Origin: Gemmatimonadota bacterium
Lineage (GTDB): Bacteria > Gemmatimonadota > Gemmatimonadetes > Gemmatimonadales > Gemmatimonadaceae
NCBI GenBank assembly: GCA_028287305.1
Contig: JAQBPX010000038.1
Location: 496,001-560,000, forward strand
DNA: 64,000 bases
Direction of reading: 5' to 3'
In this document: one piece after another, positions 47,786 to 64,000 of the stretch
How positions within the stretch are numbered: position 1 is the stretch's first letter
How the letters are laid out: every line of letters begins with the position of its first letter
The notes under the pieces: model-generated
Seen by the model: the letters and a program-made list of their open reading frames with translations, nothing else
Told to the model about the DNA's origin: nothing
The model's database searches: none
Made by a program: the position numbers and the translations under genes

Positions 47786-48532
47786 TCATGGCCCCACCCG
47801 CGTATCCCTCAGCGCGAACGTTCCCTCGGCGCGGATCCGGGCCGTGAGGAGGCGCGTGTTGAGATCCACCGACTGCTCGGGCACCGGAACCCATTCGGCG
47901 CCGACCAGCTGCACCACGCGGAGGTCGGAGCCGGACGTCCCCTTGCGCATGTACTGCAGGTTGTAGGGCATGGTCAGCGTCAGCGCCGCGTCCGGGGCGG
48001 CCGGAGTCGCGTGCAGCTCGAGCACGCTGTAACGAACCAGTAGCGAGTCCGTTGGTGCTACGGTGGAGAGCGCGAGCGTGAGGCGCGTGTCCCGGGTGAA
48101 TGCGCCCGGTGCCGCGACCACGCTCACGCCATCGTACATCCCGTCGCCCGCTGAACCACCGAACACGCCGATCGTCGCACCCGCGTATACGTCGACGCTC
48201 GCGGAGTCGCGCCTGGTCCGGGAGGTCGCGATGACGTAGGCATGTCCGCCGCGCACGCCGTGCATCACGCCCCAGGTGTTGATGAACAGCACCGCGGTGT
48301 CCGACACCGTCCACGCGACGCTGGCGGTGTCGATGCGACCGCCGCCTCCGTTGCGCACGTCGGCGTAGAGCGGACGATCAACGCCGATGTTGATCGCCTC
48401 CGTAGGGGCATTGATGATCTTCACCGAGGCCACGGCGACGTCGATCGGCATCGTGGGACCCGGTCCTCCCCGGTCTCCTCCGCACCCAGCAGCGAGCAGG
48501 GCTGCGACCATGATGAGCGATGCATGCCTCAT
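47786..48532 (-). CDS. Lipoprotein with Ig-like/BIG-type features, unknown function
   Basis: 248 residues. The lipobox LLAAGC (Cys17) is clear (MRHASLIMVAALLAAGCGGD). The middle part is Ig-like (VRNGGGGRIDTASVAWTVSD, TAVLFINTWGVMHGVRGGHA). The C-terminal half has a beta-rich AAPGAFTRDTRLTLALSTVA and LPYNLQYM-like segment. It overlaps the upstream Ig-like lipoprotein gene (ATGA), so the two are a pair. Confidence 0.65.
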   Translation of the reverse strand: MRHASLIMVAALLAAGCGGDRGGPGPTMPIDVAVASVKIINAPTEAINIGVDRPLYADVRNGGGGRIDTASVAWTVSDTAVLFINTWGVMHGVRGGHAYVIATSRTRRDSASVDVYAGATIGVFGGSAGDGMYDGVSVVAAPGAFTRDTRLTLALSTVAPTDSLLVRYSVLELHATPAAPDAALTLTMPYNLQYMRKGTSGSDLRVVQLVGAEWVPVPEQSVDLNTRLLTARIRAEGTFALRDTRVGP

Positions 48533-49548
48533 GGCGACACCGTGATGATGGTGCTCGCCGACTTCCCTTCGCTGGTTGCAGTGACGGTGGTGCGCCCCGC
48601 CTTGAGTGCGGTGACGCGGCCATCGCTGTTGACGATCGCGACCTGCGGATCCTGGCTTGCCCACGTCACCGTGCGTGACGTCGGCAGGTCCAGGCCATCG
48701 GCGCCGAGCGTGCGCGCCGAGAGCAGGGTGGACGCGCCGATGGCGAGGGTTGCGTCGACGCCGGCGCCACCGAGCGAGATCATCGCGACTGGATCGGCGA
48801 GGATCGCGTAGGCGGCCGTGCCGAGGAAGCGAGCGGAGACCGTGTGGTTGGCGACGTCGAGCTGTGCGCGCTCGCGAATCGGCTTCCACGTGCCGCCCGA
48901 GAGGGAGAATACCTCGAGCGCGTTCACCGGCGTGCCGGCCGGCAGCTTCGTGGGGTCGAAGCGGAGCGTGATGTTGGCGTCGCCGTTGAAGTTCGGCGAG
49001 GGCGTGCTCACCGACCAGGAGGCCGCGACGACGCGATCATCGCGTGCGTCGAAGGGCTGCAGGTAGAAGTTGAGCGGGCCCTGCGTTCCGGGCGTGATGC
49101 CGAAGAGCGCGACCTTGCCGCCCGATGCGCGCACCAGCGCACCGGACGCCGGGAAGGCGACGACACTGGAGGTGTTGAACTCGGCGTACGTGTACTTCTC
49201 GGCCAGCCGCGCGACGATCGCGGCGTGGCCCGCGCCGGTGACCGTCACCAGTCCAGTGGCGCTGACGCGCGCGATGGTGGTGTCGGTTTCCTGCCAGCTG
49301 GCGCCGGTGGCGGACGTCGCTGCCCCTGACTCATTCACCCCGACCGCCGAGAGCTGGAAGGACTCGCCTTCGAGCAGCATGCGATCGGGCACGCCGGTGA
49401 CCACCACGCGGTACACGCTGACTGGCGTGACCTTGATGATGAGCGGTCCGGCATGGTCGCCTGCAACGCAGGCGGTGAGTGAAGTGAGGAGTGAGGAGGC
49501 AGCGAGAGCGACAGCGACAGCACCAGCAACTGACGAGTTACGACGCAT
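48529..49548 (-). CDS. Lipoprotein with two bacterial Ig-like (BIG2) domains
   Basis: 339 residues from MRRNSSVAGAVAVALAASSLL, with a lipobox ending in LTAC. Two BIG2-type domains are seen: about 55-115 (SFQLSAVGVNESGAATSATGAS then TDTTIARVSATGLVTVTG) and 275-339 (LDLPTSRTVTWASQDPQ, VNSDGRVTALKAGRTTVT). The middle has a ZU5/GAIN-like VRASGGKVALFGITPG patch. Such proteins are surface or periplasmic. The pair with the next gene is tightly coupled; role unknown. Confidence 0.75.
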   Translation of the reverse strand: MRRNSSVAGAVAVALAASSLLTSLTACVAGDHAGPLIIKVTPVSVYRVVVTGVPDRMLLEGESFQLSAVGVNESGAATSATGASWQETDTTIARVSATGLVTVTGAGHAAIVARLAEKYTYAEFNTSSVVAFPASGALVRASGGKVALFGITPGTQGPLNFYLQPFDARDDRVVAASWSVSTPSPNFNGDANITLRFDPTKLPAGTPVNALEVFSLSGGTWKPIRERAQLDVANHTVSARFLGTAAYAILADPVAMISLGGAGVDATLAIGASTLLSARTLGADGLDLPTSRTVTWASQDPQVAIVNSDGRVTALKAGRTTVTATSEGKSASTIITVSP

Positions 49549-49613
49549 AGGCTGTTGGGTTGAGGGAGCCTTCCCAACCAACATAGGGTTCTTTTTTGTG
49601 GCGTCCTAGGGTT

Positions 49614-49629: not shown

Positions 49630-49661
49630 GGGTAACGTGGCGGGCGGGGCTGTATTGTACG

Positions 49662-50255
49662 CTACGGATGCGACACGGTGATCGACTTCGCCTCGTCGGT
49701 GTACAGCGTCATGATCGTGCCCGACTTGATCTCGGCGTCATTGCCGTGCTTGAGGAGGCCGATGGGCCCGAAGAGTACCGTGAGCGCGACCGTCGCTCCC
49801 GTGTTGTTGTCGCCCGCGCGAGCCTTGCTGGCGCGCACGGAGACCTTGTCGCCCGAGGTGAGCGTGGTCGACTCGAGGCGGACATTGAGCTTGCCGCCGC
49901 GTCCCATGAAGCCCGCGCCCTTGGCCTCGGTGACGACGCCCTTCACCGTGGCGCCCTTCGCGATGACGACCACGCCGTCCACCTTTATGTCATCGGTGAC
50001 GACGAGGACGAAGCGATCGCCCTCGGTTGCGCTCTTCGACGACATGTTCTCAGTGGTGGCCGCGGTGAACTCGAGGCAGTCGGGGATCGCGAGGGTGCGG
50101 AGGGTTGGCGCTGCGGGGGTGGCCGGAGCGGCAACGGCTGCTGCCGGAACGGCGGCCGCCTGTGGAATGACCTGCGGCTGGGTTGTCGCCTGGGCGCCGA
50201 GTGCGACGGGCGCGAGGAGCAGGAGGGCGAGCCGGCAGCGAAAGGGCAAGTGCAT
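49662..50255 (-). CDS. Hypothetical secreted protein
   Basis: 197 residues from MHLPFRCRLALLLLAPVALGAQ, a signal peptide; the longer reading adds ten residues without value. A Pro/Ala-rich linker (AAAVPAAAVAAPATPAAPT) precedes a beta-rich domain (KSATEGDRFVLVVTDDIKVDG, VVVIAKGATVKGVVTEAKG, GKLNVRLESTTLTSGDKVSV), similar in style to domains that hold small-molecule or stress-related proteins. Function unknown. Confidence 0.65.
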   Translation of the reverse strand: MHLPFRCRLALLLLAPVALGAQATTQPQVIPQAAAVPAAAVAAPATPAAPTLRTLAIPDCLEFTAATTENMSSKSATEGDRFVLVVTDDIKVDGVVVIAKGATVKGVVTEAKGAGFMGRGGKLNVRLESTTLTSGDKVSVRASKARAGDNNTGATVALTVLFGPIGLLKHGNDAEIKSGTIMTLYTDEAKSITVSHP

Positions 50256-51154: not shown

Positions 51155-52423
51155 CTATTTCGGCCTCCGCAACTTCTCCTCATACAGCTTCTTCCCGCGC
51201 CTGGCGTTGTACGCGCGCTGCGCCGAGTACTTGGCGTCCGCGTCGTTGAAGTCGCCCTGCTGCATCTTGCTCGCGAGTACGCGCAGGTCGCCCATCTGCT
51301 CGCGCAGCTCCTCGTCGTCCACGCTCGCGTGCGCCATGCTGTGCGCCGCGTGCTCGAGCACCATCCCCGCGCCGTGGTAGTCGCCGCGCTCGCGCAGCTT
51401 GAGCGCTTCCTCGCGCGCACGCGCGACTTCCTGGACGAGCATCTCCGTCCGCACTTCCGGCTCCGCCTTGCCCTGCGCGTCGAGTGACGACGTGATCGGC
51501 ATGCGCACCTCGCGAAGCTCCACGCCCGCACCCTCCGTGAGCACGGTCGCGGTGACCGTGACCATCGCGATCTGGACGTCGCCCTGCGTGAGCCCCGGCA
51601 CGAAGAACTCCAGCAGCAGCGACTTGGGCTCGCGCGCGTAGAGGTCGCCCATCTCCACACGGACGGTGCCGTCGGTCGAGCTCGACGGATACCGGTTGTG
51701 CACCGCGATCAGCTCCACCGCCTCGGCGGCCTTCACGTGCACCACCACGTTCTGCGCCGAGAGCGTGAGCAGCCCCTCGATCTCCTCCTCGAACACGCCG
51801 GGCGCCTGGTCGGGCCGCTCGATGTAGTACGTGTTGCCGCCGCCCGCGTCGGCCATGGCCTTGAGCAGCTCTTCATCGTAGTCCTCGCCGAAGCCGATGG
51901 TGCTGGTGCTCACGCCCTTTGCGGCGGCAGCACGGCAGAGCGCGACGAGACGCGGCGCGTCGGTGATGCCGACATTCGCGAGGCCGTCGGTGAGGAGCAG
52001 CACGCGATGCATGGCGCCGTCGTCCGATCCGCCGCGACCCTTCTCGGTGAGCTCATGGCCGCGCAGCCATCCACCGCTGAGGTTCGTGCTGCCGCCCGGG
52101 TGAATGCCCGCGATCAACTGCTGCAGGTCGACGCCGGCGGTGCCGCTCACGGGAAGCGACACGGTGGTGACCGCATCGTCGTAGGCGACGACGCTCAGCC
52201 GGTCGTCGGGACGCACGCGTCTCGCGAGGAACGCAGCGGCTTCCTTGGCGCGCTCGAGCTTCTCGCCGCCCATCGAGCCGGAGCGGTCGAGCACGAGCGA
52301 GAGGTTGAGCGGGACGTGGTGATCGGTGGCGGGGACCTTTCCCTCGAGCTTCAGCAGGGCGCGGACGATGTAGCCCTCACGCGCGACGGCGAGCTCGTAA
52401 TCGACCAGGACTTTCGGTTCCAT
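51155..52423 (-). CDS. von Willebrand factor A domain protein
   Basis: 422 residues, soluble. The vWA domain (about 38-215) has the MIDAS motif DRSGS (VLDRSGSMGGEKLERAKEAA), a threonine in GGSTNLSGGW and LLLTDGLANVG. A C-terminal part (about 230-422) is beta-rich then helical, with VQEVARAREEALKLRERGD. Such proteins mediate metal-dependent protein contacts, often in complexes with MoxR ATPases, but no MoxR gene is here. It converges with the gene upstream. Confidence 0.85.
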   Translation of the reverse strand: MEPKVLVDYELAVAREGYIVRALLKLEGKVPATDHHVPLNLSLVLDRSGSMGGEKLERAKEAAAFLARRVRPDDRLSVVAYDDAVTTVSLPVSGTAGVDLQQLIAGIHPGGSTNLSGGWLRGHELTEKGRGGSDDGAMHRVLLLTDGLANVGITDAPRLVALCRAAAAKGVSTSTIGFGEDYDEELLKAMADAGGGNTYYIERPDQAPGVFEEEIEGLLTLSAQNVVVHVKAAEAVELIAVHNRYPSSSTDGTVRVEMGDLYAREPKSLLLEFFVPGLTQGDVQIAMVTVTATVLTEGAGVELREVRMPITSSLDAQGKAEPEVRTEMLVQEVARAREEALKLRERGDYHGAGMVLEHAAHSMAHASVDDEELREQMGDLRVLASKMQQGDFNDADAKYSAQRAYNARRGKKLYEEKLRRPK

Positions 52424-52573
52424 GGGACCTCGTTGTTCAGGTCCCTCATAGTCGTGGGTGGGTCTGACAATGGATGCGACATGCGTGAATCTGATGCGGC
52501 AGGATCGCGATTGTGCCGCAGGTTAACCAACGAGCCTCAAGTTGAATTTACCCAACAGTTAGGTTACTCTTCG

Positions 52574-52810
52574 ATGCCCACGGTGCTACGCGTGGATGGC
52601 TTTCAATTCCTGGTGCTTTTTCCCTCGAGGGAGCACGGCCCCCCGCACGTTCACGTCCGGAAAGCCGGCGCGGAAGTGATCATCTGGCTGACGCCAGTGC
52701 GGCTCGGCCCAAATCGCGGAATGAGCGCAGTTGAGGCTCATCGGGCGGCCGAAATCGCTGAGCGGCGCCTGGACGTTCTACTGAGTTCCTGGAGAGAACA
52801 CCATGGCTAA
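52574..52810 (+). CDS. DUF4160 domain protein (putative toxin-antitoxin partner)
   Basis: 78 residues from MPTVLRVDGFQFLVLF. The DUF4160 signature is PSREHGPPHVHVRKAGAEV, followed by NRGMSAVEAHRAAEIAERR. This family is often encoded with DUF2442, and the pairs are suspected toxin-antitoxin-like modules. Its end overlaps the start of the DUF2442 gene by 8 bp. Confidence 0.85.
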   Translation: MPTVLRVDGFQFLVLFPSREHGPPHVHVRKAGAEVIIWLTPVRLGPNRGMSAVEAHRAAEIAERRLDVLLSSWREHHG

Positions 52811-53261
52811 GCGCGAGACGATTTCGGCAGAGTTTCGGCGAGAGTTCGAGTTGGCGACGGCCTTGGATATCGCCGAGCGCAAGGCCGGACTTCGCGCGGC
52901 AAGCGTTTCGTACGACAGAAAGACTCGGCGATTCATGATCGAGCTCACCCACGGGGTACTCTTTGGATTTCCCGTGAGTCTGTTGCCTCATCTGGCGAAC
53001 GCGACGGCCAGAGAACTCTCCTCCGTGGAGGCTTCGCCTGGCGGTTACGGTATCGGTATTGAGTCACTGGACGCCGACTATAGCGTGCCCGGACTGCTCG
53101 AGTTCAGCTTTGGACGTCGGCACCTTGCCAGTCTGGTCAGCGCAGCCAATGGGCGAGTAAAGAGCCGTGCGAAAGCGGCGGCCTCGAGGGAGAACGGCAA
53201 GAAGGGCGGGCGGCCGCGGAAGAAGGGCGGATCTCCGCGGAAGAAGGCCGCCGCCCGCTAG
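52803..53261 (+). CDS. DUF2442 domain protein with basic C-terminal tail
   Basis: 152 residues. The DUF2442 domain (about 25-112) has RRFMIELTHGVLFGFPVSLLP and GIGIESLDADYSVPGLLEF. The last 35 residues are very Lys/Arg/Gly-rich (NGKKGGRPRKKGGSPRKK), which suggests nucleic-acid binding. It is the partner of the DUF4160 gene. The toxin-antitoxin role is inferred from pairing. Confidence 0.85.
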   Translation: MAKRETISAEFRREFELATALDIAERKAGLRAASVSYDRKTRRFMIELTHGVLFGFPVSLLPHLANATARELSSVEASPGGYGIGIESLDADYSVPGLLEFSFGRRHLASLVSAANGRVKSRAKAAASRENGKKGGRPRKKGGSPRKKAAAR

Positions 53262-53274
53262 TCCAGCTGCAATC

Positions 53275-53766
53275 TCAGCTCGCTGACTCGGACGCGAGCA
53301 GCGCGTCGAGCACCTGGTAGCCCATCTCCATTCCGCCAGCCGCTGGCGACTCCAGGACGCCGTCCCGCACTTCCTTCGACACGTACAGGATGCTCGTGGT
53401 GACGGTGGTCTTCCCCGCGCGCTCCGAGAACACGACGGTGGCGACCGCCTCGCCTTCGTACCAGGCCTGGTCGAACTTCTCCGTGTTGACGATCCGCTCG
53501 CCCGGAACGACTTCGCGATAGGTGCCGCCCATTCCCATCTCGCTGCCGTCGGGTCCCTTCCACACCCAGCGGTAGGCGCCACCGACGCGCACGTCCATCT
53601 CACACACGGCCCACGACCAGCCGGGCATCGCGCCGAGCCAGCGCTTGACCAGCTCGGGCCTGGTGTACGCGTCGTAGACGAGCGGGCGCGGCGCCGAGAA
53701 GGCCCGCTCGAACCTGATCTCGCGCTCGGAGGGCGTGGTGATTTGCAGGGCTCCAACGTTGGTCAT
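53275..53766 (-). CDS. SRPBCC/AHSA1-family protein
   Basis: 163 residues. The Activator of Hsp90 ATPase-like START/Bet v1 fold is shown by VYDAYTRPELVKRWLGAMPGWS, VRVGGAYRWVWKGPDG and PGERIVNTEKFD. It overlaps the ArsR gene by 4 bp, the well-known ArsR+AHSA1 pair. It likely binds a hydrophobic ligand under the regulator's control. Confidence 0.92.
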   Translation of the reverse strand: MTNVGALQITTPSEREIRFERAFSAPRPLVYDAYTRPELVKRWLGAMPGWSWAVCEMDVRVGGAYRWVWKGPDGSEMGMGGTYREVVPGERIVNTEKFDQAWYEGEAVATVVFSERAGKTTVTTSILYVSKEVRDGVLESPAAGGMEMGYQVLDALLASESAS

Positions 53767-54173
53767 CGTCCTTTCCCCTTTTGTTTGGTGGCGCCGGACT
53801 TACGGGTGCGGCCCTGCGTGGACTGTTCCGCCTTGAGCTCCTCGAGCAGGTCATCGAGGCGGCCGAAGGAAAGCTCCCAGAACTGGCGATACCGCTCGAT
53901 CCACTTGTTCGCCTCGGCGAGTGGTTTCGCCTCGAGCCTTCGAGGGCGACGTTGGGCATCGCGCCCGTGCGAGATGAGGCCGGCGCGCTCGAGGACCTTG
54001 AGATGCTTCGAGATGGCCGGCTGGCTCATCGCGAACGGCTCGGCCAGCTCTCTGACGGACGCCTCTCCGCGGGCGAGTCGTGCGAGGATCGCGCGGCGCG
54101 TGGGATCGGCGAGCGCGGCGAACGTTGCATCGAGTCGGGCGGCGGGCGGCTGTCCGTGACCGTGGGTGTTCAT
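53763..54173 (-). CDS. ArsR/SmtB-family transcriptional regulator
   Basis: 136 residues from MNTHGHGQP. The winged HTH (about 14-90) has FAALADPTRRAILARLARGE, MSQPAISKHLKVLERAGLI and RRPRRLEAKPLAEA. No metal-binding Cys is obvious, so it is the non-metal ArsR type seen with AHSA1 genes. A palindrome overlaps its start codon. Confidence 0.93.
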   Translation of the reverse strand: MNTHGHGQPPAARLDATFAALADPTRRAILARLARGEASVRELAEPFAMSQPAISKHLKVLERAGLISHGRDAQRRPRRLEAKPLAEANKWIERYRQFWELSFGRLDDLLEELKAEQSTQGRTRKSGATKQKGKGR

Positions 54174-54246: not shown

Positions 54247-54636
54247 TCAGCAGTTGAGATAGAGAATTGGATTCGCCGCGCCCATCTTGAAGAAAAGCGC
54301 TACGGATCTTCCAACAAATTCGCTCCGTATCGACTCCGTTGCGACACCGCCCGTGAATTCGAACCGCCCGCCGTAGAGCGAGAGGTCAATGATTCTCGTC
54401 TCGTAATCGGTGCTGCCCGCGGGGTGCCATTGAATGATGGTGTAGACCTCGAGGACGATTCCCTCGACGACTGCGCACGCGTACCTGGCGCCCAGCCTCC
54501 GCGTCCCCATTCGCCATACACCTCTCGTCGCGTCATACAGTGCGCGAGGGGACATTCCAGCGTGATGCATGCGAGGGATGCGAATCAGTATCGTCGCCTC
54601 GTCCGTTTCGAGATTCCGCGGAGAATGGGAGCTCAC
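54247..54636 (-). CDS. Small conserved-looking protein coupled to the EVE-HNH nuclease
   Basis: 129 residues from a GTG that overlaps the nuclease stop as GTGA; this is better supported than a longer frame reading into the nuclease gene. The sequence has ETDEATILIRIPRMHHAGMS, ALYDATRGVWRMGTRRLGARYA, VVEGIVLEVYTIIQWHPAG and GRSVALFFKMGAANPILY. I recall similar proteins annotated as hypothetical, and the regular pattern suggests a compact domain. It ends the five-gene operon. Function unknown; it may act with the nuclease as an inhibitor, specificity or immunity factor. Confidence 0.7.
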   Translation of the reverse strand: MSSHSPRNLETDEATILIRIPRMHHAGMSPRALYDATRGVWRMGTRRLGARYACAVVEGIVLEVYTIIQWHPAGSTDYETRIIDLSLYGGRFEFTGGVATESIRSEFVGRSVALFFKMGAANPILYLNC

Positions 54637-55430
54637 GTGGCCGCCTTTCGGCGTCCTGAACCGGTGGTTGCATCCTTTCCAGTACGACGTCGCGCCATGA
54701 CGATCCGTCGTAGCCCCGAGACCGACAGAATGCGCGTTCCACGATGGATCATTCTGTGGCAATTCGCGCACAGTACGGCCAAGTCAGAGAGCGAGGTACT
54801 GTGCGCCTCACTGGCGTGGCCGAGGGGCTGCAGGTGATGCACCTCGCAAAAGCCTTCGCCGGACTTTCCGTACCTTTCATGGAAATCGAAGTCGCACACC
54901 TCGCAAGCCAGCCTGCCCTTCTCGCGCAAGGTGGTTATGCGCTTTCGACGGACTAGGCCGGAGTCTCTTTCAATCCTGAGGTGACTAGCCAGGTAGCGAG
55001 CGCCCTCGATTCCGCTCTCGTCGCTCGTCGTGAACTGTTTGGGACTCAAGGCCACCAGCTTCGCAAGCGTCCCGGCGTGCGCGGCGGGAACAACAATCGT
55101 TGCAATGGGCGATCTCCAATAGCCCCAATCCGGAATTGCCGTCATGATGTCAATTCTGGAGCGCGGGTTCTCCAACATGTTAATGCTGTCGACTCGCGCG
55201 AAATACTTCCCTCGGAAGTGATGGCCGGGCTGATCATTGAGCTTGGGAATCGACGCGACCTCGCCGGTCGCGACCAGCGACGATAGAGGGCGAGAGGCAT
55301 AGAACAGGACGGTGTCACCGATCTCGGCGAATCGACTGACGGTCCAGCGCGCTGACCAGGGGTGCAGGCTCGCCTTGCGCTGCATTCCACGCAGATCTGC
55401 AGCACTGACATGCGCGATGATGATTGACAT
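54633..55430 (-). CDS. EVE/PUA-like domain fused to an HNH endonuclease
   Basis: 265 residues. The N-terminal domain (about 1-130) resembles EVE/PUA-like modified-base readers (EIGDTVLFYASRPLSSLVATGEV, GHHFRGKYFARVDSI). The C-terminal HNH part has Cys176/Cys179 (ACEVCDFDF), the HH of FCEVHHLQPL (198-199) and CANCHRMIH (Cys221, Cys224, His225, His229), typical of McrA-like zinc-supported HNH nucleases. The combination is that of modification-dependent (type IV) restriction enzymes. It is encoded between the HEPN-like gene (31-bp gap) and a small coupled gene. Modified-DNA targeting is inferred. Confidence 0.85.
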   Translation of the reverse strand: MSIIIAHVSAADLRGMQRKASLHPWSARWTVSRFAEIGDTVLFYASRPLSSLVATGEVASIPKLNDQPGHHFRGKYFARVDSINMLENPRSRIDIMTAIPDWGYWRSPIATIVVPAAHAGTLAKLVALSPKQFTTSDESGIEGARYLASHLRIERDSGLVRRKRITTLREKGRLACEVCDFDFHERYGKSGEGFCEVHHLQPLGHASEAHSTSLSDLAVLCANCHRMIHRGTRILSVSGLRRIVMARRRTGKDATTGSGRRKAAT

Positions 55431-55461
55431 TCCTTCCTCGAGGTCGGGAGGTGCAAATGGA

Positions 55462-56628
55462 TCAGACTCTTCGGCGGAGCGGATTGTTGAGCTCTACGGT
55501 AGCCAACCCCTGAAACACCCCCTCCCCACCAATCCCCATCAACCGATTCCTCCACCTCGTAGCCTCGGCTCGCTCTACCCGCTTCGCATGCGTGCCCTCG
55601 TTCCGCACCTCCCGAAACTCATCCACGATCGCCGGGAACTGGTTCGTAAACCATGCGCCGTTCTTGAGCACGCGCCGTAACCCTTCACCAAGCTTCGGCT
55701 CCCCACCCAGTGCGTAGACCAACTGGCCGAGCATCAACCGGTATTCCGCCAGGTCAACGGTGCGGTCCTCGATCTTCACGCGCCGCTCTTCCGCGCTGAG
55801 CATCGGCACCGCCGCCCGCAGCACGAGCGCCACCTGGCTCTCGATCGCCTTCGCAAAACTCCCGAGCACCGGCGCAAAGTCGAACCCCGCGTCCGCGCGA
55901 TGCTCCCGGTAGATCCGCTCGCCGGTCGCGATGAACGTCCGCGTCGTGCGATCGAGCGCATGCCACGCCGCCTCACCGAACAGGTCGTCGCGCAGCGAAC
56001 GCTCGGTCTCTCCAATTCCACCGGCGAGCCCGGCGTCATGCTTCGCCCAGATCTCGCCGTCAGTGAGTTGCTCCATTTCCTCGTCGCTGAAGAAGGTCCG
56101 CCCATCGGGGCGCTTCACGATCAGCGGCAGGTCGACCATTCCGCCATACAGGGAAACGGGCCGGTCGTTGTAATGCGTGTTCCGCAGCTGCTTCAGCTCC
56201 TCGATCACGCCGACCAGGTCATCGGAGACCAGGCGTCGCAGGTCGGTGAGCCCCAGCCAGAAGTCGCACTTCATCCCCGACTCAGCGTAGTACTTCGGCA
56301 CGCGCACAAGCTCCGACTCCCGCAGGTCGCCGAAGTTGATCGTCAGCACATGACCCACATAGAGCGAGCGGTAATCCGTGAGGTAGAGGTGCGTCTCCTC
56401 GCCGACTTCCTGCTTCAGCAGGCTGGCCGCGATCGCCTCGATCTCCTTCACGTTCGCCTGGGGCGCCTGCCGGTTGGGCGACTTCACCTTGCCCCACCAC
56501 ACCATCACATCGTCGTCCTTCATCTTCTTGTCGGCTGCGAGCCCCAGCAGCACCCCGAGGTGCTCCTCCATCGCATTGTTCGCGTAGGCCGGGTTCCACA
56601 CGGTGACGAGATGCAACGCGTCGCTCAT
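55462..56628 (-). CDS. Protein with EVE/PUA-like N-terminus and HEPN-like C-terminal region
   Basis: 388 residues. Residues about 1-130 form an alpha/beta domain (HLVTVWNPAYANNAMEEHLG, VMVWWGKVKSPNRQ, THLYLTDYRSLYVGHVLTI) with PUA-like flavour. The C-terminal region (about 215-375) is helical with DFAPVLGSFAKAIESQVALV, typical of HEPN-like proteins, and it ends with FREVRNEGTHAKRVERAE. This contains R342-N-E-G-T-H347, the R-X4-H motif of metal-independent HEPN RNases. The start overlaps the pafC-like stop by 4 bp. The HEPN reading rests on motif and helical content and needs profile confirmation. If right, it is a candidate stress- or defence-activated RNase. Confidence 0.6.
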   Translation of the reverse strand: MSDALHLVTVWNPAYANNAMEEHLGVLLGLAADKKMKDDDVMVWWGKVKSPNRQAPQANVKEIEAIAASLLKQEVGEETHLYLTDYRSLYVGHVLTINFGDLRESELVRVPKYYAESGMKCDFWLGLTDLRRLVSDDLVGVIEELKQLRNTHYNDRPVSLYGGMVDLPLIVKRPDGRTFFSDEEMEQLTDGEIWAKHDAGLAGGIGETERSLRDDLFGEAAWHALDRTTRTFIATGERIYREHRADAGFDFAPVLGSFAKAIESQVALVLRAAVPMLSAEERRVKIEDRTVDLAEYRLMLGQLVYALGGEPKLGEGLRRVLKNGAWFTNQFPAIVDEFREVRNEGTHAKRVERAEATRWRNRLMGIGGEGVFQGLATVELNNPLRRRV

Positions 56629-57575
56629 GCGCGCATCCCTTCCAGCGCACTCGCCACCGCCACCCGAATCGACGCCGGCGACAAAACCTCAGCATCCGGC
56701 CCATACTGCAGCACATGCCGCACCGCCCATCCCTCATCCGCCACCCGATGCTCCACCACGAACGACCCATCTGCGCCATGCACGCCTTCCTCCCGCTCGG
56801 CGATCCACCGCGCGATGTTCGGCGAGTACCACACGCGCATGGGCTGCACGTCGCGCGCTGAGAACGCCTTCCCCTCACGCACCAGCGAATCCACCGAGAA
56901 GTCGGCCGGACGCTCGAACATGCCCTCGTCAGTCTCGGCTCCCTCCACACGATCGAGCCTGAAGAACCGCATCCCCTCCGATTCCATGCAGTGAGCGACC
57001 AGGTACCACGTTCCCTTCAATGGGAGAAGTGCATACGGGCACACCACGCGAAGCTCCGCATGCGTCGCGTCGGCTTTGCGATACGCGATCCGCAGCTTCC
57101 GTCGCGATTCAACCGCATCGCGCGCCACGCGATGCACCGGGGTATCGGTGAGCGGAAGCGGAGTCGCCTCCCACGGCAGCGGACCCTCTGCCCACGCCGG
57201 CAGCTGCACGATCACCTGGCGTACCCGCTCGCGCGTCCTGTCGATCAGCACGCGCTCGTCTATCGGCCGCGTGCCGCGCAGCACCGCCAGCCCGAGCTCC
57301 AGCGCGCAGAGTTCCTGCAGCGTGAGTCGCATCGGCCGCAGGAAGTGACTCGAATGAATGCTCACCCGGTCAGGTTCGAGCTGGATGCCCATGCCGCCGA
57401 CATAGCCCGCCGGCTCGATCACGTAGTCTGTCAGGTCACGCAGGTCGTCGAGCAGCTCCTCAGCTTGTACGCCCGTCAGCTCGGTGAGCTCGGCGAGCGA
57501 CACTTCCTCTCCATCAGCGAAATGCGGGATGATTCCGAGCAGCCGATGGAGCCGGGCGCGCGCGTCAGCTGGCAT
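56625..57575 (-). CDS. WYL-domain transcriptional regulator (PafC-like)
   Basis: 316 residues from MPADARARLHRLLGIIPHFA; a longer reading adds 18 residues with no support. An N-terminal winged-helix-like domain (about 5-75: EEVSLAELTELTGVQAEELL) precedes a WYL domain (about 120-200: RKLRIAYRKADATHAELRVVCPYALLP, GTWYLVAHCMESEGMRFFRLDRV) and a C-terminal WCX-like extension. The order and pairing with a second WYL gene match PafBC, which in mycobacteria drives SOS-independent DNA-damage responses. It overlaps the pafB-like gene by 11 bp. Confidence 0.88.
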   Translation of the reverse strand: MPADARARLHRLLGIIPHFADGEEVSLAELTELTGVQAEELLDDLRDLTDYVIEPAGYVGGMGIQLEPDRVSIHSSHFLRPMRLTLQELCALELGLAVLRGTRPIDERVLIDRTRERVRQVIVQLPAWAEGPLPWEATPLPLTDTPVHRVARDAVESRRKLRIAYRKADATHAELRVVCPYALLPLKGTWYLVAHCMESEGMRFFRLDRVEGAETDEGMFERPADFSVDSLVREGKAFSARDVQPMRVWYSPNIARWIAEREEGVHGADGSFVVEHRVADEGWAVRHVLQYGPDAEVLSPASIRVAVASALEGMRA

Positions 57576-58638
57576 GGGCGGCTCCGTAGCGGGCGCGCGT
57601 GAGCGACACGGCCTCGTTGAAGTCGGCAATCAGCTGCGGTGGCGAGATGGGCTTCGCCTCGCCCGCGAACGACAGCAGCCACCGCGTGAACGCATCCGCC
57701 CTGCGCACCTGGAACGAGCGCTGCCGTTCACTCCCCTCCACCGCGTGTCCGAGCCGAGACAGCGCCATCGTCGCGCCACTCTCGCCACAGATTTCGATGA
57801 CCATCTCCTCGGCCTCACCATCCCCGATTTCCCAGGCGTGTCGCGACTCCGCATGGTCCTTGAGACGGAAGTCCTTCGGCACCACGTAGTCGAACTCGGT
57901 CGGTTTCTTCTTGTTCATCGCGACGCCCTGCATCCGGCTCACGCGAAAGTTGCGCAGCGCGCCCCGATTGCGATCGAACCCCGCCAGGTACCACTGCCCG
58001 CTGTGGTAGAAGAGTCCGTAAGGGTCCACGGTGCGACGCGTCTCGCTGTCGCTGTGCATCGCGTGATAGCCGAACGTCACAAACTTCCGGCGCAGCAATG
58101 CTTCGCCGAGCGCGCGCAGCGCACCCTTTTGCTGTCGCACGGGGGACACGGGTGCGTCACCCGACTCGGCGAGGCCTACGTCTGTGCGCAGGTCAAAAGT
58201 CAACTTGCGGACGGCCGAACGGGCGTCGCTCTCGAGGAGCGGATCGCCCATGGCGATGGCGACGTTCGCCCCCTCGAGCAGTGTGCTTATCTGGTCGGGC
58301 TCGAAGGACAGCGTGCGCAGTCCGCGATAGCCGTCGCGATTCACCTTCACCGGCTGGTGCTGGCTCGAGACCAGGCTGATGTAGGGCAGGTACATCTCGC
58401 GCGGGTCCACGCGGTACTTGTACTCGCCGCCGTCAGGGTTCCCGACCATCTCGATGGGTATGCCGTAGGCGCGGAGCTCGTCCTTGTCGCGCTCGAACAT
58501 GCGCATCAGGGTGTCCGGATCCTGCCCCTGGTTGTATGCAGGGACCTCGGCGCGCAGCGTGTCGAACGTGGCCCCGAAATGGCGCGAGAGCAGGGCCCCC
58601 ACGAGGTCGATCCAGCGCTGGAGCTTGGCGTCCGCCAT
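57565..58638 (-). CDS. WYL-domain transcriptional regulator (PafB-like)
   Basis: 357 residues. The N-terminal HTH (LQRWIDLVGALLSRHFG, then MFERDKDELRAYGIPIEMV) is followed by a WYL core (RRKFVTFGYHAMHSDSETRRT, VDPYGLFYHSGQWYLAGFDRNR) and a WCX-like C-terminus (ALSRLGHAVEGSERQRSFQV). It is the first gene of the five-gene unit, with a GGAAAGG Shine-Dalgarno and a minus-strand TATAGT (58671-58676) as a possible -10. In PafBC systems, single-stranded DNA is sensed through the WYL domain. This one and its partner probably act together on the operon and the divergent addB. Confidence 0.88.
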   Translation of the reverse strand: MADAKLQRWIDLVGALLSRHFGATFDTLRAEVPAYNQGQDPDTLMRMFERDKDELRAYGIPIEMVGNPDGGEYKYRVDPREMYLPYISLVSSQHQPVKVNRDGYRGLRTLSFEPDQISTLLEGANVAIAMGDPLLESDARSAVRKLTFDLRTDVGLAESGDAPVSPVRQQKGALRALGEALLRRKFVTFGYHAMHSDSETRRTVDPYGLFYHSGQWYLAGFDRNRGALRNFRVSRMQGVAMNKKKPTEFDYVVPKDFRLKDHAESRHAWEIGDGEAEEMVIEICGESGATMALSRLGHAVEGSERQRSFQVRRADAFTRWLLSFAGEAKPISPPQLIADFNEAVSLTRARYGAAHAS

Positions 58639-58776
58639 CAGCGACCTTTCCGGGGAGCGAGGGTGACCATACTATAAGAGGGGGAAACGCTTGTTCGCGG
58701 TGAATCTCCGCGACCGGCCCGGCGCGTCAAGCACGCGCGTCACGCGGGCCGAGCCACCCAACCTCGCACCACCCAC

Positions 58777-58798
58777 TGTCAGGCGGGTGCGCGACGTT
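58777..58798 (+). promoter_or_regulatory. Possible PafBC-type promoter (RecA-NDp-like) for addB
   Basis: TGTCAGGC, eight bases, then GACGTT resembles the mycobacterial RecA-NDp consensus (TTGTCRGTG-N8-TANNNT) at TGTCAG, spacing, A2 and T6, but it misses the TG at the end of the first box and the first T of the second. It sits about 27 bp before the addB start. It is noted because PafBC-like regulators are encoded divergently; the match is partial. Confidence 0.3.
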
Positions 58799-58824: not shown

Positions 58825-61800
58825 ATGGCGCGGCTCGAGATGATCACGGCGACGGACCCGGCCGTGCTGCTGCGCCACGCCGCCAGCGGGTTCCTGGTCC
58901 CGATGAAGGCGTCGGACGAAAACCCCTTCCCCACCATTCCCTACCTGCTCGCGGTGCGACAGGGCGGGCTGCGCGACGACGTCTACTCCCTCGCGACCGC
59001 GGCCGGCTCAAAGGGGTGGTTCGACCTGCCCCTCTGCATCTTCCACGAGCTGCACGACCGCCTCGGCGCCCCTTCGCGCACGGTTCTCGGCGACCGCGAG
59101 CGCCTGGTGATGCTGCACGCCGCCATTCGCTCGGCCGGCTCCAACGTGTTCGCGAAGCTCGATCGCCCCGAGGACTTCCTCGAGGCCGTGGACCGGCTGT
59201 TCGGTGAGCTGGTTTCGGAGGATGTGTCGCCTGAGCGATTCTCCTCGGCGCTCGCATCGCGCGCTGATCGCGACAACTTCGAGCAGCTGCGCGACGACGA
59301 CCTCTCGCGCTCATACGCTGCCTACCGCGCGGCGCTCGCACAGCACGACATCGGCGACGGACGCGACGGTTGGCTGCACGCGGCTCGTGCGATCGACGCG
59401 GGCACCGCAGACCTGTCGACGATGCATCGTGGACATAGGGAGCTGCGCATCTTCGGGCTCCAGGACCTGCGACACGGTTGGTCGCACCTGATCGCAGCGC
59501 TGGGGCGTACTACCCAGCTGGATCGCGTTACGCTGCATTCGAGCACGGCGCTGGAGCTGGGGGCCATTCCGCATGAGCGGGTGGTGCTCGAGGAGCCGGA
59601 GTCGGTGGCTACGCGCTTGTTCTCGCAGGCGTCGTCCCGAGCGAAGCCTGTCATCCTGAGCGAAGCGAAGGATCTGCAGTTGGGCCGCCCCCGCCTCCTC
59701 TCCGCCCCCGACAACGAACGCGAGCTCCAGTGGATCTCCCTGGAATGCCGCCGCCTCATCGACGCCGGCACCGCGCCCCACCGCATCGCAATCGTAGCGC
59801 GCCAATCCCGCCCCGGCGTCGATCGCGCCGTTTCCGCCCTCGCCCGCGTCGGCGTCCCCGCCACCGCCCGCCAGCGCACCGCTATCTGCGAGATCCCCGT
59901 GATCCGCGCGCTGCAGTCCCTGCTCGGCGCCGCCGGCGAAGGCTGGACGCGACACGGCCTCTCCGAAGTCGCCGACAACCCCTACCTCGGCGCCGGGCTC
60001 TCCACGCAGGTCCTCAACTTCCTCGGCTTCCGTCGCCGGATCATCGGGCTCTCCGCCTGGCAGAAGTCCCTCGACGCGCTCGCCGTGCAGGAGGCCTCAC
60101 CGAACCAGCGCGACCGCCTTCCCTCCCCCGAGCTGGTGGCCGAGACGCGCGAGGCGTTCGCGCAATTCTCCGAGCGCGCGCGAGAGCTGGACAAGGGACG
60201 CACCCTCCCCGAGTGGCTCGAGTGGCTGGCCGCGATGATGGAGCGCGACGACTGGGAACTCCGCAAGCGCGCCTTCACCGTGGAAGGTGAGCGCTACGAC
60301 CTGCTGAGACTCGACGCCACCGGATGCGAGGCGCTGCAGGGCGTGATCGACGAATGGCGCTCGGCCGTCACCAAGTATGCCGATGACGAGATGCGCTCGT
60401 CGCGCCTCTCCGTCGGCGAGTTCGCCTCGCAACTCTCGGCGTGCCTGCGCGGCGAGGTCGCACTCTGGACGCCGATGTTTCGCGGCGTGCAGGTGCTCGA
60501 GTCACTCGCCGCCGCGTACCGCAGCTTCGAGCACGTCTTCGTGATCGGCATGGAAGCGGGCGCGTTCCCGGTGCGCGCGTCGCAGTCGCCCATCTTCGAC
60601 GACCGCGAGCGCTCTGCCCTCGTCGCCGCGGGCATCCCCCTCGAGCTGCGCGGCGTGTGGGACGCACGCGAGCGCGAGCTCTTCCGCATCCTCGTGGCGG
60701 GCGCGCGGCAGCTAACCCTCAGCCACGCCCGCTGCGACGAACAGGGCAGCGAAGTGATTGCGTCGGCGTTCGTAGATGAACTCCTCGACGCCTGCGACGT
60801 CGAGAAGGTGTCAGTAGCCACCAGCGACGTAGTGCTGAAGGGAGTTCCTCTCTACAAGGCAGTCATCCTGAGCAGCCCCGCTGTCATCCTGAGCGAAGCG
60901 AGGGATCTGCCGTTGCAGTTGCCGTTGCCGTCCGCTTTGGACCACGCCCAGCACGCGGCGCGCGTGGAACGCATGCGCCACCTAGGCCAGCCGAGCCCCT
61001 GGTCAGGAACGATCGAAGACCCCGAACTGGTAGCCATGCTCGCCGAGCAGTTCGGCGACGACTACCTCTGGAGCCCCACGCAGCTCGAGGAGTTCGCGAA
61101 GTGCCCGTGGGCATTCTTCTCCAAGCGCCTGCTCGGCCTCGAGCTCCTCGAGGATCCCGAGGAAGACATCGCCCCCTCGGCGCAGGGCACCATCCTGCAC
61201 GTGGCGCTCGAGCGGTTCTACAACGAGGCCATGAAGCGCGACGGCAAGCCGGTGTTCCTCCGCGAACCCGACCTCGCGTGGGCGCTGCCGCTGGCCGAGC
61301 AATGCGTGGACGCAGCCTTCGCCGCCGAGATGGAGCGGCAGTGGGTGGGACACCCGGCGATGCATGCCGCGAAGCAGGGAGAGTTGCGTCGCATCATGAC
61401 GGGGTTCATCGCCTGGGAGGTTGCCCTCCACGAGGAGATGCACGAGGACAACAACCGCAAGAAGGCGCCGAAGCTCATCCGCACGGGTGTCGAGAGTCAC
61501 GAGCTCAGGTTCGACGACATGCGCTACGTGAAGGACGGCGTCACGCTCCGTTATCGCGGCACCATCGATCGCGTCGAGGTATCGGTGGATGATCGCCTGC
61601 CCGGCGTGCCGTTCATCGGTGCGCTCGACTACAAGACGAGCAAGTACGCGACGCCCGGCGGTGGCGAGGCGAAGGCGTGGGCCGACGGCGTGGTGCTGCA
61701 GGTTCCGCTCTATGCGTATGCGCTCTCGCAGCTGCGGCCGGACCATGAGGTGGTGCGCGTTGGGTATGCGTCGCTCAAGCGGCCCGCGTCCATTCACCAG

Positions 61801-62019
61801 CTCGAGCTCTACCAGTTCGATCGCAAGACCGGCGAGGCCGATCCCGACGACAAGGCGCAGGAGAAGTGGAAGGACGCGCTCAACGCCGCGGTGATGCAGC
61901 TCAAGCGGGCGCGCGCCGGCGAGTTCCCCGCCGATCCGCCGCCGAGCTGTCACTGTCCGCCGTGGTGCCATGGACGCGACGTCTGCCGCGTCAAGGGAGG
62001 TCCTCGTGACGCGTTCTGA
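58825..62019 (+). CDS. addB: AddB-type helicase/nuclease subunit (PD-(D/E)XK) with in-frame repeat insertions
   Basis: 1064 residues. An inactivated helicase-like body carries a C-terminal PD-(D/E)XK nuclease: GALDYKTSKYATP has Asp935-Tyr-Lys937, and an upstream LRYRGTIDRVEV also fits. Iron-sulfur cysteines are Cys760 (CPWAFFSK) and a C-terminal cluster with Cys1042, Cys1044, Cys1048 and Cys1054 (SCHCPPWCHGRDVCR), as in AddB. It forms the AddAB heterodimer that processes double-strand breaks. Two in-frame repeat copies encode VILSEAKDLQL (about residues 275-286) and VILSSPAVILSEARDLPL (about 681-698); they sit in presumed loops and leave the frame open. It overlaps the addA start (GTG) by 14 bp. 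Confidence 0.93.
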   Translation: MARLEMITATDPAVLLRHAASGFLVPMKASDENPFPTIPYLLAVRQGGLRDDVYSLATAAGSKGWFDLPLCIFHELHDRLGAPSRTVLGDRERLVMLHAAIRSAGSNVFAKLDRPEDFLEAVDRLFGELVSEDVSPERFSSALASRADRDNFEQLRDDDLSRSYAAYRAALAQHDIGDGRDGWLHAARAIDAGTADLSTMHRGHRELRIFGLQDLRHGWSHLIAALGRTTQLDRVTLHSSTALELGAIPHERVVLEEPESVATRLFSQASSRAKPVILSEAKDLQLGRPRLLSAPDNERELQWISLECRRLIDAGTAPHRIAIVARQSRPGVDRAVSALARVGVPATARQRTAICEIPVIRALQSLLGAAGEGWTRHGLSEVADNPYLGAGLSTQVLNFLGFRRRIIGLSAWQKSLDALAVQEASPNQRDRLPSPELVAETREAFAQFSERARELDKGRTLPEWLEWLAAMMERDDWELRKRAFTVEGERYDLLRLDATGCEALQGVIDEWRSAVTKYADDEMRSSRLSVGEFASQLSACLRGEVALWTPMFRGVQVLESLAAAYRSFEHVFVIGMEAGAFPVRASQSPIFDDRERSALVAAGIPLELRGVWDARERELFRILVAGARQLTLSHARCDEQGSEVIASAFVDELLDACDVEKVSVATSDVVLKGVPLYKAVILSSPAVILSEARDLPLQLPLPSALDHAQHAARVERMRHLGQPSPWSGTIEDPELVAMLAEQFGDDYLWSPTQLEEFAKCPWAFFSKRLLGLELLEDPEEDIAPSAQGTILHVALERFYNEAMKRDGKPVFLREPDLAWALPLAEQCVDAAFAAEMERQWVGHPAMHAAKQGELRRIMTGFIAWEVALHEEMHEDNNRKKAPKLIRTGVESHELRFDDMRYVKDGVTLRYRGTIDRVEVSVDDRLPGVPFIGALDYKTSKYATPGGGEAKAWADGVVLQVPLYAYALSQLRPDHEVVRVGYASLKRPASIHQLELYQFDRKTGEADPDDKAQEKWKDALNAAVMQLKRARAGEFPADPPPSCHCPPWCHGRDVCRVKGGPRDAF
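59650..59682 (+). repeat. Dispersed repeat copy in frame within addB (first)
   Basis: A copy of the CTGAGCGAAGCGAAGGATCT variant, encoding VILSEAKDLQL in the reading frame of AddB. Confidence 0.88.
60862..60914 (+). repeat. Dispersed repeat, one partial and one full copy in frame within addB (second)
   Basis: A partial copy (CATCCTGAGC at about 60862-60873) is followed by a full copy (to about 60914), encoding VILSSPAVILSEARDLPL. The downstream CCGTTGCAGTTGC is shared with the flank of the repeat copy in the ADOP permease gene. Confidence 0.85.
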
Positions 62020-64000
62020 CATCGTACTTGCAGAGCCCGAAGCGCCCAAGGTTCCGACCGCCGCACAGTTCGCGGTCGTCCGTGAGCGCAGGCAGCACCT
62101 GCTCGTCTCGGCTGGCGCCGGCACCGGCAAGACGTTCACCGTGGTGTCGCGACTGCTCTACGAGGTGGGCGTCGCCGTTGGCGGTGAGGTGGTGGACTCG
62201 CCGCTCGCGCTGGAAGACGTCGCGGCCATCACGTTCACGAACAAGGCCGCTGCTGAGCTCAAGCAGAAGTTGCGCGACGGGCTACGCGATGCTCACCGTC
62301 GCGCCGATGCGTACGCGGTAGACGGCGCGCGCGTCGGCACCATTCACGCCTTCTGCGGCGACATCCTCCGAGAGTTCGCGCTGCGTAGCGGGCGAAGCCC
62401 GTCGCTGTCGCTGATGGAGGAAGGCGAGGCCAGCGTGCTGGCCGAGCAGGCGGTGACGGAAACACTGCTCGGCGCGCTGGATGAAGCGCCGAGTGCGCAG
62501 CTCGCGAAGGGACTTTCGACGCTGCTGTCCATGTATTCGGCGAAGGACATCGCCACGTGGATGGGTGAGCTGGTCGAGAAGGGTTCGTCGCTGCCGGCGC
62601 TGTTCGCGAAGCGCGCGCAGTTCGGCAGCAACGAGCGCACCCTGGTGGAGCTGGCGACGCTGGCGCAGGCGCGGCTGGAAGAGATGCTCGTGGAGCGCGG
62701 GGCGCTGGACTTCGACCGGATGATCACGTGGACGCGCGACCTGCTGCGCGATGACGCCGGCGCTCGGCGCGCGCTGCAGCGGCGGATCAAGCTGCTGGTG
62801 GTGGATGAGTTCCAGGACGTGGATCCCGTCCAGCGCGAGATCGCGTACCTGCTGGCCGATCCCGAGAGTGGTCGCACCGACACCACGCGACTGGTGCTGG
62901 TGGGCGACCCCAAGCAGAGCATCTATCGGTTCCGCAAGGCGGACGTATCGACGTGGCGGTTCGTGGAGCGCGACTTCGCCGAGCGTGGCTGGGGGCGCGT
63001 GGTGCCACTCACGTACAATCGTCGAAGTGTGCCGGCCATCCTCGGCTTCGTGGACCATGCGATCGGCACGCTGCTCGACACACCGCTGCGCGGTGGTGAG
63101 CTGGAGGACTTCGAGGTGGCCTACGCGCCGCTGCATCCCCTGCGCCCCGATGGCGATCGCGAGCATCCCGTAGAAGTGATCGTGATCCCGCCCAATGAGG
63201 AGGGCAAGGCGCAGAAGGCCGAGGTGGTGCGGCTGAGCGAGGCGCGTGCGATGGCGCGTCGCGCGAAGGAGCTGCACGCCGACGGAGTGCCGTGGAAGGA
63301 AATGGCGCTGCTGATGACGAGCTGGAGCGGCCTGGAGCTGTATACCGATGCGTTCGCGAAGGAGAACATCCCGACGTATGCGCTGCGGAGCGATGGATTC
63401 TACGAGTGCATGGAGATCGTCGACTGCCTCGTGGCGCTGAAGGCCATTCGCGATCCGAGGGATGATCGCGCGCTGGTGGGTTTTTTCAGGTCGCCGTTCG
63501 TCGCGGTGTCGGATGAGACATTGCTGCGGTTGAGGAAGGGAGTGGCGGCGGGCCCGTTGTGGAATGGGCTCACTGGATTTGCGCTCGCCGATGCAGCCGA
63601 GGCGGCGCGCCTTGCGCGTGGCGTGGAGCTGCTGCGGAAGTACTCGGCGCTGCGCGATCGCGTGCCGAGCGCGACGCTACTCGAGGACCTCTTGGAGGAA
63701 AGCGGCTACCTGGCGCACCTCGGGCTGATGGGCGCGGATGGGCTGCAACGCCTGGCCAACCTGCAGAAGCTGGTGCGCACCCTGGGCGTGATGCGCGAGG
63801 AGAGCCTGGGCGAAGCGCTGGCGACCATCGGCCGCGCGCGCGAGCTGGGCGTGCGAGTGGGCTCGGCGCGGCTGCACGCCGAGGGCGACGATGTCGTGAC
63901 CATCAGCACCGTGCACTCGGCCAAGGGCCTCGAATGGAGCGTGGTGTTCTGGTGCGACCTGGTGCGCGGCAAGTCGGCGGATCGCACGCGCCTGTATGTG
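62006..64000 (+). CDS. addA: AddA-type UvrD-like helicase/nuclease subunit (3' partial)
   Basis: 665 residues are seen, from a GTG with AGGGAGG at 5 nt; the frame runs open through the right window edge. Helicase motif I is SAGAGTGKTFT (Walker A Lys42), motif II is LLVVDEFQDVD (Asp267, Glu268), with VGDPKQSIYRFRKAD and LTYNRRSVPAIL as further UvrD-type motifs, and TISTVHSAKGLEW near the end. The missing part would hold the last helicase motifs and the C-terminal nuclease. With addB it forms the RecBCD-like AddAB complex for double-strand-break repair. Confidence 0.95.
   Translation, partial: MTRSDIVLAEPEAPKVPTAAQFAVVRERRQHLLVSAGAGTGKTFTVVSRLLYEVGVAVGGEVVDSPLALEDVAAITFTNKAAAELKQKLRDGLRDAHRRADAYAVDGARVGTIHAFCGDILREFALRSGRSPSLSLMEEGEASVLAEQAVTETLLGALDEAPSAQLAKGLSTLLSMYSAKDIATWMGELVEKGSSLPALFAKRAQFGSNERTLVELATLAQARLEEMLVERGALDFDRMITWTRDLLRDDAGARRALQRRIKLLVVDEFQDVDPVQREIAYLLADPESGRTDTTRLVLVGDPKQSIYRFRKADVSTWRFVERDFAERGWGRVVPLTYNRRSVPAILGFVDHAIGTLLDTPLRGGELEDFEVAYAPLHPLRPDGDREHPVEVIVIPPNEEGKAQKAEVVRLSEARAMARRAKELHADGVPWKEMALLMTSWSGLELYTDAFAKENIPTYALRSDGFYECMEIVDCLVALKAIRDPRDDRALVGFFRSPFVAVSDETLLRLRKGVAAGPLWNGLTGFALADAAEAARLARGVELLRKYSALRDRVPSATLLEDLLEESGYLAHLGLMGADGLQRLANLQKLVRTLGVMREESLGEALATIGRARELGVRVGSARLHAEGDDVVTISTVHSAKGLEWSVVFWCDLVRGKSADRTRLYV

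Follow-up and report, generated by a model that had tools for sequence, protein, structure and literature searches.

DNA-damage control of the PafBC type, which is independent of LexA and RecA, is known chiefly from Actinobacteria. HTH regulators with WYL domains also serve defence loci, where BrxR and CapW function as single-type regulators. In mycobacteria, binding of single-stranded DNA (ssDNA) by PafBC requires the PafB residues R181, Y196, R204, R208, R211 and R214 (PMC11804915), the promoter consensus is tTGTCRgtg-8 nt-TannnT (PMC5656591), and the regulator controls AdnAB and RecBCD (PMC8223512, PMC8151990). The recognition-helix arginines of Arthrobacter PafBC (6sj9) are R44 and R48 (PMC6789036). 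Two other described systems share parts with the locus reported here: CoCoNuT systems, which contain YTH-like and HEPN domains and have a predicted RNA target (PMC11090510), and counter-ADP-ribosylation systems, in which ADP-ribosylglycohydrolase/ARPP-1-type genes accompany WYL regulators and vWA proteins (PMC9503650). Our literature search found no mention of PafBC together with Gemmatimonadota.

The locus lies in a 64,000-nucleotide stretch of DNA (the window) that spans C4:496001-560000 of a 4.37-Mb Gemmatimonadota genome in 39 contigs; among named records, the overwhelming majority of matched relatives belong to the same phylum. Its features, numbered from the first nucleotide of the window, are as follows.

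57565-58638, minus strand: A, PafB-like regulator (HTH-WYL-WCX), 357 aa
56625-57575, minus strand: B, PafC-like regulator (HTH_PafC-WYL-WCX), 316 aa, with an 11-bp overlap with A
55462-56628, minus strand: C, protein with a YTH/EVE-like and a HEPN domain, HP0729-like, 388 aa, with a 4-bp overlap with B
54633-55430, minus strand: D, HNH nuclease with an unconfirmed N-terminal fold, 265 aa, accessory, separated from C by a 31-bp gap
54247-54636, minus strand: E, stand-alone relative of the PD-T4-3 / GIY-YIG C-terminal domain, 129 aa, accessory, with a GTGA overlap with D
53275-54173, minus strand: ArsR-AHSA1 pair, between E and the VWA gene
52803-53261, plus strand: DUF2442 gene, between E and the VWA gene
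52448-52469, minus strand: PafBC-like promoter site TGTCAGACCCACCCACGACTAT, 24 bp 5' of the VWA ATG
51155-52423, minus strand: VWA-domain protein, 422 aa (PF00092, E 2.7e-17), with about 3 kb of other genes between it and C
58777-58798, plus strand: PafBC-like promoter site TGTCAGGCGGGTGCGCGACGTT, 26 bp 5' of the addB ATG
58825-62019, plus strand: addB, ORF, divergent neighbour, with homologs that adjoin A-B in other genomes
61970-64000, plus strand: addA open frame, extending past the window end (gene call, with homologs in L031, L133 and L138)

The original prediction joined A to E into one operon divergent from addB-addA. Its geometry of five minus-strand ORFs with their overlaps and gap is exact, and addB is indeed divergent, with addA following it. 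The 129-aa form of E is the one given here; extended to 54771, as in the longest mechanical ORF, it would share 139 bp with D. Immediately 5' of the D ATG is GAGGAAGGA, and a scan of the minus-strand intergenic sequence among the five genes found no promoter-like or terminator-like sites.

Both A and B are WYL proteins by Pfam (E 6e-23 and 3e-20), as had been called, and each resembles its own subunit of PafBC. A matches the PafB half of Arthrobacter 6sj9 (E 2e-26) and the Mycobacterium smegmatis PafB subunit of 7p5x (E 1.3e-23), and B matches the respective PafC counterparts (E 1.8e-24 and 9e-14), with both PF19187 and WCX over cut-off. The six PafB residues required for ssDNA binding are all kept in A, as R202, Y217, R225, R229, R232 and R235 in the order given above; in B, R206 and R209 correspond to PafC R201 and R204, and R46 and R50 of A correspond to the recognition-helix R44 and R48 of 6sj9. 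The adjacent pafB-pafC order and the two distinct HTH-WYL-WCX subunits are likewise shared with the mycobacterial and Arthrobacter regulators, and this two-subunit organization sets A-B apart from BrxR and CapW. At six loci (L135, L139, L148, L150, L152 and L163), A and B make up a single fusion protein of about 740 aa, the arrangement of Arthrobacter PafBC, with recBCD adjoining in two of them. Unlike their described relatives, the A-B genes of this locus belong to another phylum, have no pafA neighbour and share an operon with a HEPN gene. Neither a Pup ligase nor any WYL protein besides A and B was found in this genome; linkage to pafA and the Pup-proteasome is a feature of the actinobacterial locus, not of the protein. 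A and B are best read as a PafBC-type regulator that probably responds to ssDNA. The earlier suggestion of a PafBC-like pair sensing damage or ssDNA gains strong support from homology of both subunits, from conservation of the residues that contact ssDNA and DNA, and from a conserved PafBC promoter motif in relatives.

This motif emerges from the regions upstream of A, where TGTCA-like words are enriched across loci. TGTCR-N11-TAnnnT precedes A in 13/40 non-internal cases, although several of these motif-bearing loci are closely related, so that not all are independent counts. It also precedes VWA in 5/13 cases, addB in 3/10 and C in 2/21, versus 10/532 for all other genes. Within the A set, spacings of 6-10 and 12-16 give at most one match per spacing, and shuffled A upstream regions give a mean of 0.1 matches. 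Judged from sequence, the motif is that of the mycobacterial PafBC promoter, with identical spacing. In the window, we scored 127,958 positions with a matrix built from 23 sites, all in other genomes. The site 5' of VWA, TGTCAGACCCACCCACGACTAT, ranks 1 and the site 5' of addB, TGTCAGGCGGGTGCGCGACGTT, ranks 5; each has one mismatch to TGTCA-N11-TAnnnT, and both carry GA in place of TA at -10. A good motif was not found in the A promoter of the window (best matrix score of about 0). The second-best window site (49654-49675, minus strand) lies 69 bp 5' of an ORF at 48529-49584 on the same strand, which encodes a 351-aa Big_2-domain protein and is a possible further regulon member.

On the scale of whole genomes, the relaxed motif is weakly enriched in this genome (9 matches versus 4 in the control), and the strict motif gives 32 matches versus 11 in the reversed control for 30 A-positive genomes and 19 versus 15 for 30 A-negative genomes. 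The difference between the two sets is modest; it is the positions of the sites that are telling. In A-positive genomes, sites occur 5' of A, VWA, addB, rmuC, hsdM and cas3g; for addB (G018), VWA (G358) and rmuC (G083), some of them are on a different contig from A. In the 30 A-negative genomes we recognised none 5' of a repair gene. The sites at the defence genes come from two A-positive genomes (L280 and L279), where the motif is found 158 bp 5' of cas3g and directly 5' of hsdM; they may reflect chance or a damage-induced link to defence. We rejected recA as a regulon member, as the motif was found in 0/25 of its upstream regions in A-positive genomes. The response therefore looks local and narrower than that of mycobacteria, in which recA is part of the regulon, and we class A-B as PafBC-like rather than as the mycobacterial global regulator. 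SOS control of A through a perfect Gram-positive-type LexA box, CGAACAAGCGTTTC (58684-58697), was also rejected: such boxes occur at only three sites in the genome, the other two lie away from SOS genes, and none was found 5' of A in other loci, which places the match at chance level.

Conservation of gene order redraws the boundary of the unit. A is present in 108/395 and C in 39/395 genomes of the phylum Gemmatimonadota, and the order A-B-C recurs in L031, L032, L033, L034, L038 and L053, with tight coupling in L031, L033, L034 and L038 and 4-bp overlaps in several loci. In L037, L042 and L044, B-C is found close to or at the end of a contig. More distant genomes have the order C-A-B (L052, L054 and L097), and in L051, L056 and L072, C and A-B are a few kilobases apart. 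The five-gene order proposed for this locus is thus borne out for its first three genes, but D and E follow A-B-C at none of these other loci. The far end of the proposed unit was consequently misplaced, as the conserved partner is the VWA gene, which lies beyond E and outside the unit as first drawn. VWA homologs occur near C or A-B at 13 loci: 3' of C in L034 (with one gene between), L038, L053 and L061; near A-B at the C-less loci L133, L137, L148, L153, L163 and L168; and in L037, L042 and L049. An insertion comprising D-E, the ArsR-AHSA1 pair and the DUF2442 gene would explain the 3-kb distance between C and VWA in the window.

The second recurrent neighbours are addAB/recBCD genes, which lie within 10 kb of A in 7/40 C-less loci under strict score limits (binomial P of about 1e-7, taking a generous assumed background of 1%) and in 10/40 under looser clustering. 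In L138, addB-addA-A-B form one series with 4-bp overlaps, and in L032, recC-recB-recD stand ahead of A-B-C, in keeping with the AdnAB/RecBCD link of PafBC. As a separate observation, addB in the window contains two exact copies of GTCATCCTGAGCGAAGC (59650-59666 and 60883-60899, plus strand), reading VILSEAKDL and VILSEARDL, and five weaker copies are found elsewhere in the window (7 found versus 0.12 expected). This is a dispersed repeat that has entered the addB coding sequence.

Gene C joins two domain types. Across 29 homologs, the RNxxxH motif (R342-N343-x3-H347) is invariant, as are the N-terminal aromatic residues W11, W44, W45, Y82, Y90 and W124, and the Pua-like domain PF24405 is detected in 23/29. 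C matches the HP0729 family NF041917 over its full length (E 3.7e-36) and falls outside the named family, as its score of 125 bits is below the curated cut-off of 250; our literature search did not find a description of HP0729 function. In a model of C with a pLDDT of 91.9, VIA-align matches residues 203-379 to the HEPN domains of the E. coli toxins RnlA and LsoA (Z 10.6-11.2; RnlA 11.2, LsoA 10.9), which share the RxxxxH motif, and residues 1-180 to YTH domains (Z of about 7), the McrB N-terminal domain (7.0) and EVE/ASCH proteins (about 6). The HEPN part of the modelled fold is above structural background. The YTH/EVE part is indicated more weakly, by many concordant rows together with PF24405, since common structural arrangements can also reach a Z of about 7. 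Searching solved structures with the C sequence gave nothing meaningful, and Foldseek by itself returned no E below 0.08 for the model and no viral match below 0.1, so the fold assignment relies on VIA-align and the invariant motif. With motif and fold in agreement, the HEPN call of the original prediction holds, and C is predicted to be a HEPN endoribonuclease. It differs from RnlA and LsoA in its low identity to them (11-14%), in its YTH/EVE-like N-terminal domain and in having no recognised antitoxin gene adjoining it. CoCoNuT systems similarly combine YTH-like and HEPN domains, but McrB GTPase and McrC are absent among the genes examined at this locus. C also does not need the A-B regulator, as more than half of C loci lack A-B. 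Genes for an ADP-ribosylglycohydrolase-phosphatase and ARPP-1 adjoin C loci in L033 (4419-7366), L041, L066 and L052, some with a PafBC-like motif.

Taken together, these observations favour a regulator of the PafBC type that links ssDNA to repair. In the mechanism we propose, ssDNA exposed on damaged or invading DNA, such as through AddAB or RecBCD resection, would bind the WYL/WCX tunnel of the A-B heterodimer, and active A-B would open TGTCR-N11-TAnnnT promoters to the housekeeping RNA polymerase. Targets predicted here are addAB and VWA, joined in relatives by recC, rmuC and the regulator genes themselves; homology and the motif support this chain from ssDNA through A-B and the polymerase to addAB and VWA. 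C, encoded in the same operon, would be the arrest arm, linked to damage or infection: a HEPN endoribonuclease that cuts RNA and is guided by its YTH/EVE-like domain as a reader of nucleic acid. D and E would be later mobile additions, possibly on the same transcript. We hold this reading as a whole with a little better than even confidence. The idea that the WYL pair governs an RNase and a DNase survives in part: the candidate RNase C shares the operon of the pair, but the window sites precede addB and VWA, no good site precedes A, and the DNase D appears to be a later mobile passenger.

An alternative account is plain regulation of DNA repair, in which A-B serve addAB and other repair genes, while the damage response uses C to process RNA or in repair, with no role in defence. 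In its favour, most of the links seen through neighbours and motif concern repair genes (addB, recC and rmuC). The sites at hsdM and cas3g nevertheless hint at defence, and most HEPN proteins that keep RxxxxH serve as toxins or as RNases of defence, which makes this account possible but rather doubtful to us.

Conversely, the locus could be an anti-phage abortive infection system in which A-B hold C low or poised, phage DNA ends trigger C to cause death or arrest, and AddAB activity is monitored. The similarity of its HEPN domain to RnlA and LsoA, which are anti-T4 RNases, would fit such a role, as would the PafBC-like motif 5' of hsdM and cas3g in the two relatives, the patchy spread of A and C, and the Abi and restriction genes beside D relatives on a plasmid. 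Against this, C has no PADLOC match apart from a weak TPR match in some homologs, it was not found in the viral contigs and plasmids searched, most solitary copies sit amid ordinary genes, and a partner antitoxin was not seen. We consider abortive infection unlikely on this balance, and return to the PafBC-type regulator with C as its arrest arm, for which the status of D and E remains to be described.

D has an HNH domain (PF01844, E 6e-7), so the nuclease half of its earlier description as an EVE-HNH protein stands. The EVE half is unconfirmed: no Pfam match was found in its N-terminus, for which a single-sequence AlphaFold2 model was unusable (pLDDT 34), and the demonstrable EVE/YTH-like domain is that of C. 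Relatives of D were found on 200 plasmids and 14 viral contigs, and one plasmid-borne relative adjoins a BglII-type enzyme and an Abi gene. E matches PADLOC PD-T4-3 at positions 125-252 (E 6e-11) and is 42-45% identical to the C-terminal parts of plasmid GIY-YIG proteins; it lacks the GIY-YIG nuclease domain and has the PD-T4-3 C-terminal domain alone. A Rhodococcus plasmid carries an HNH gene followed by a PD-T4-3-type GIY-YIG protein. D and E also differ in composition from A-C, with a GC of about 0.59 (0.596 for D) and a GC3 of 0.69 versus 0.64-0.66 and 0.78-0.85. The simplest reading is that D-E are a mobile HNH-plus-reader pair inserted 3' of C, which may ride on the A-B-C transcript. The common strand, the 31-bp gap and the GTGA overlap would fit a genuine type IV-like restriction system of all five genes, with D-E as its nuclease arm. 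We reject this as very improbable: no other A-B-C locus carries D and E behind C, the sole D relative near such a locus (about 4 kb away in L053) matches residues 80-240 only, and the composition of D and E differs from that of A-C. The type IV-like defence role first suggested for the five genes thus has no support as a conserved system.

The locus suggests that, in this Gemmatimonadota bacterium, an additional alarm outside the SOS response, raised by broken or invading DNA, has been connected to repair and perhaps also to defence or the arrest of growth. A bolder version, which we put forward only tentatively, is that an ssDNA alarm of the PafBC type exists outside Actinobacteria, that its regulon leaves out recA, and that through it AddAB/RecBCD resection of damaged or phage DNA would engage a modification-reading HEPN RNase and the VWA protein, leading to RNA cleavage and arrest. 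A defined set of promoters is now available for testing, and the combination of a YTH/EVE-like reader with a HEPN RNase in C allows a direct test of whether the processing of DNA ends is linked to RNA cleavage. Sharing of the PafBC promoter grammar by Gemmatimonadota, together with regulator genes physically tied to addAB/recBCD, would indicate that this second alarm is older or more mobile than has been thought.
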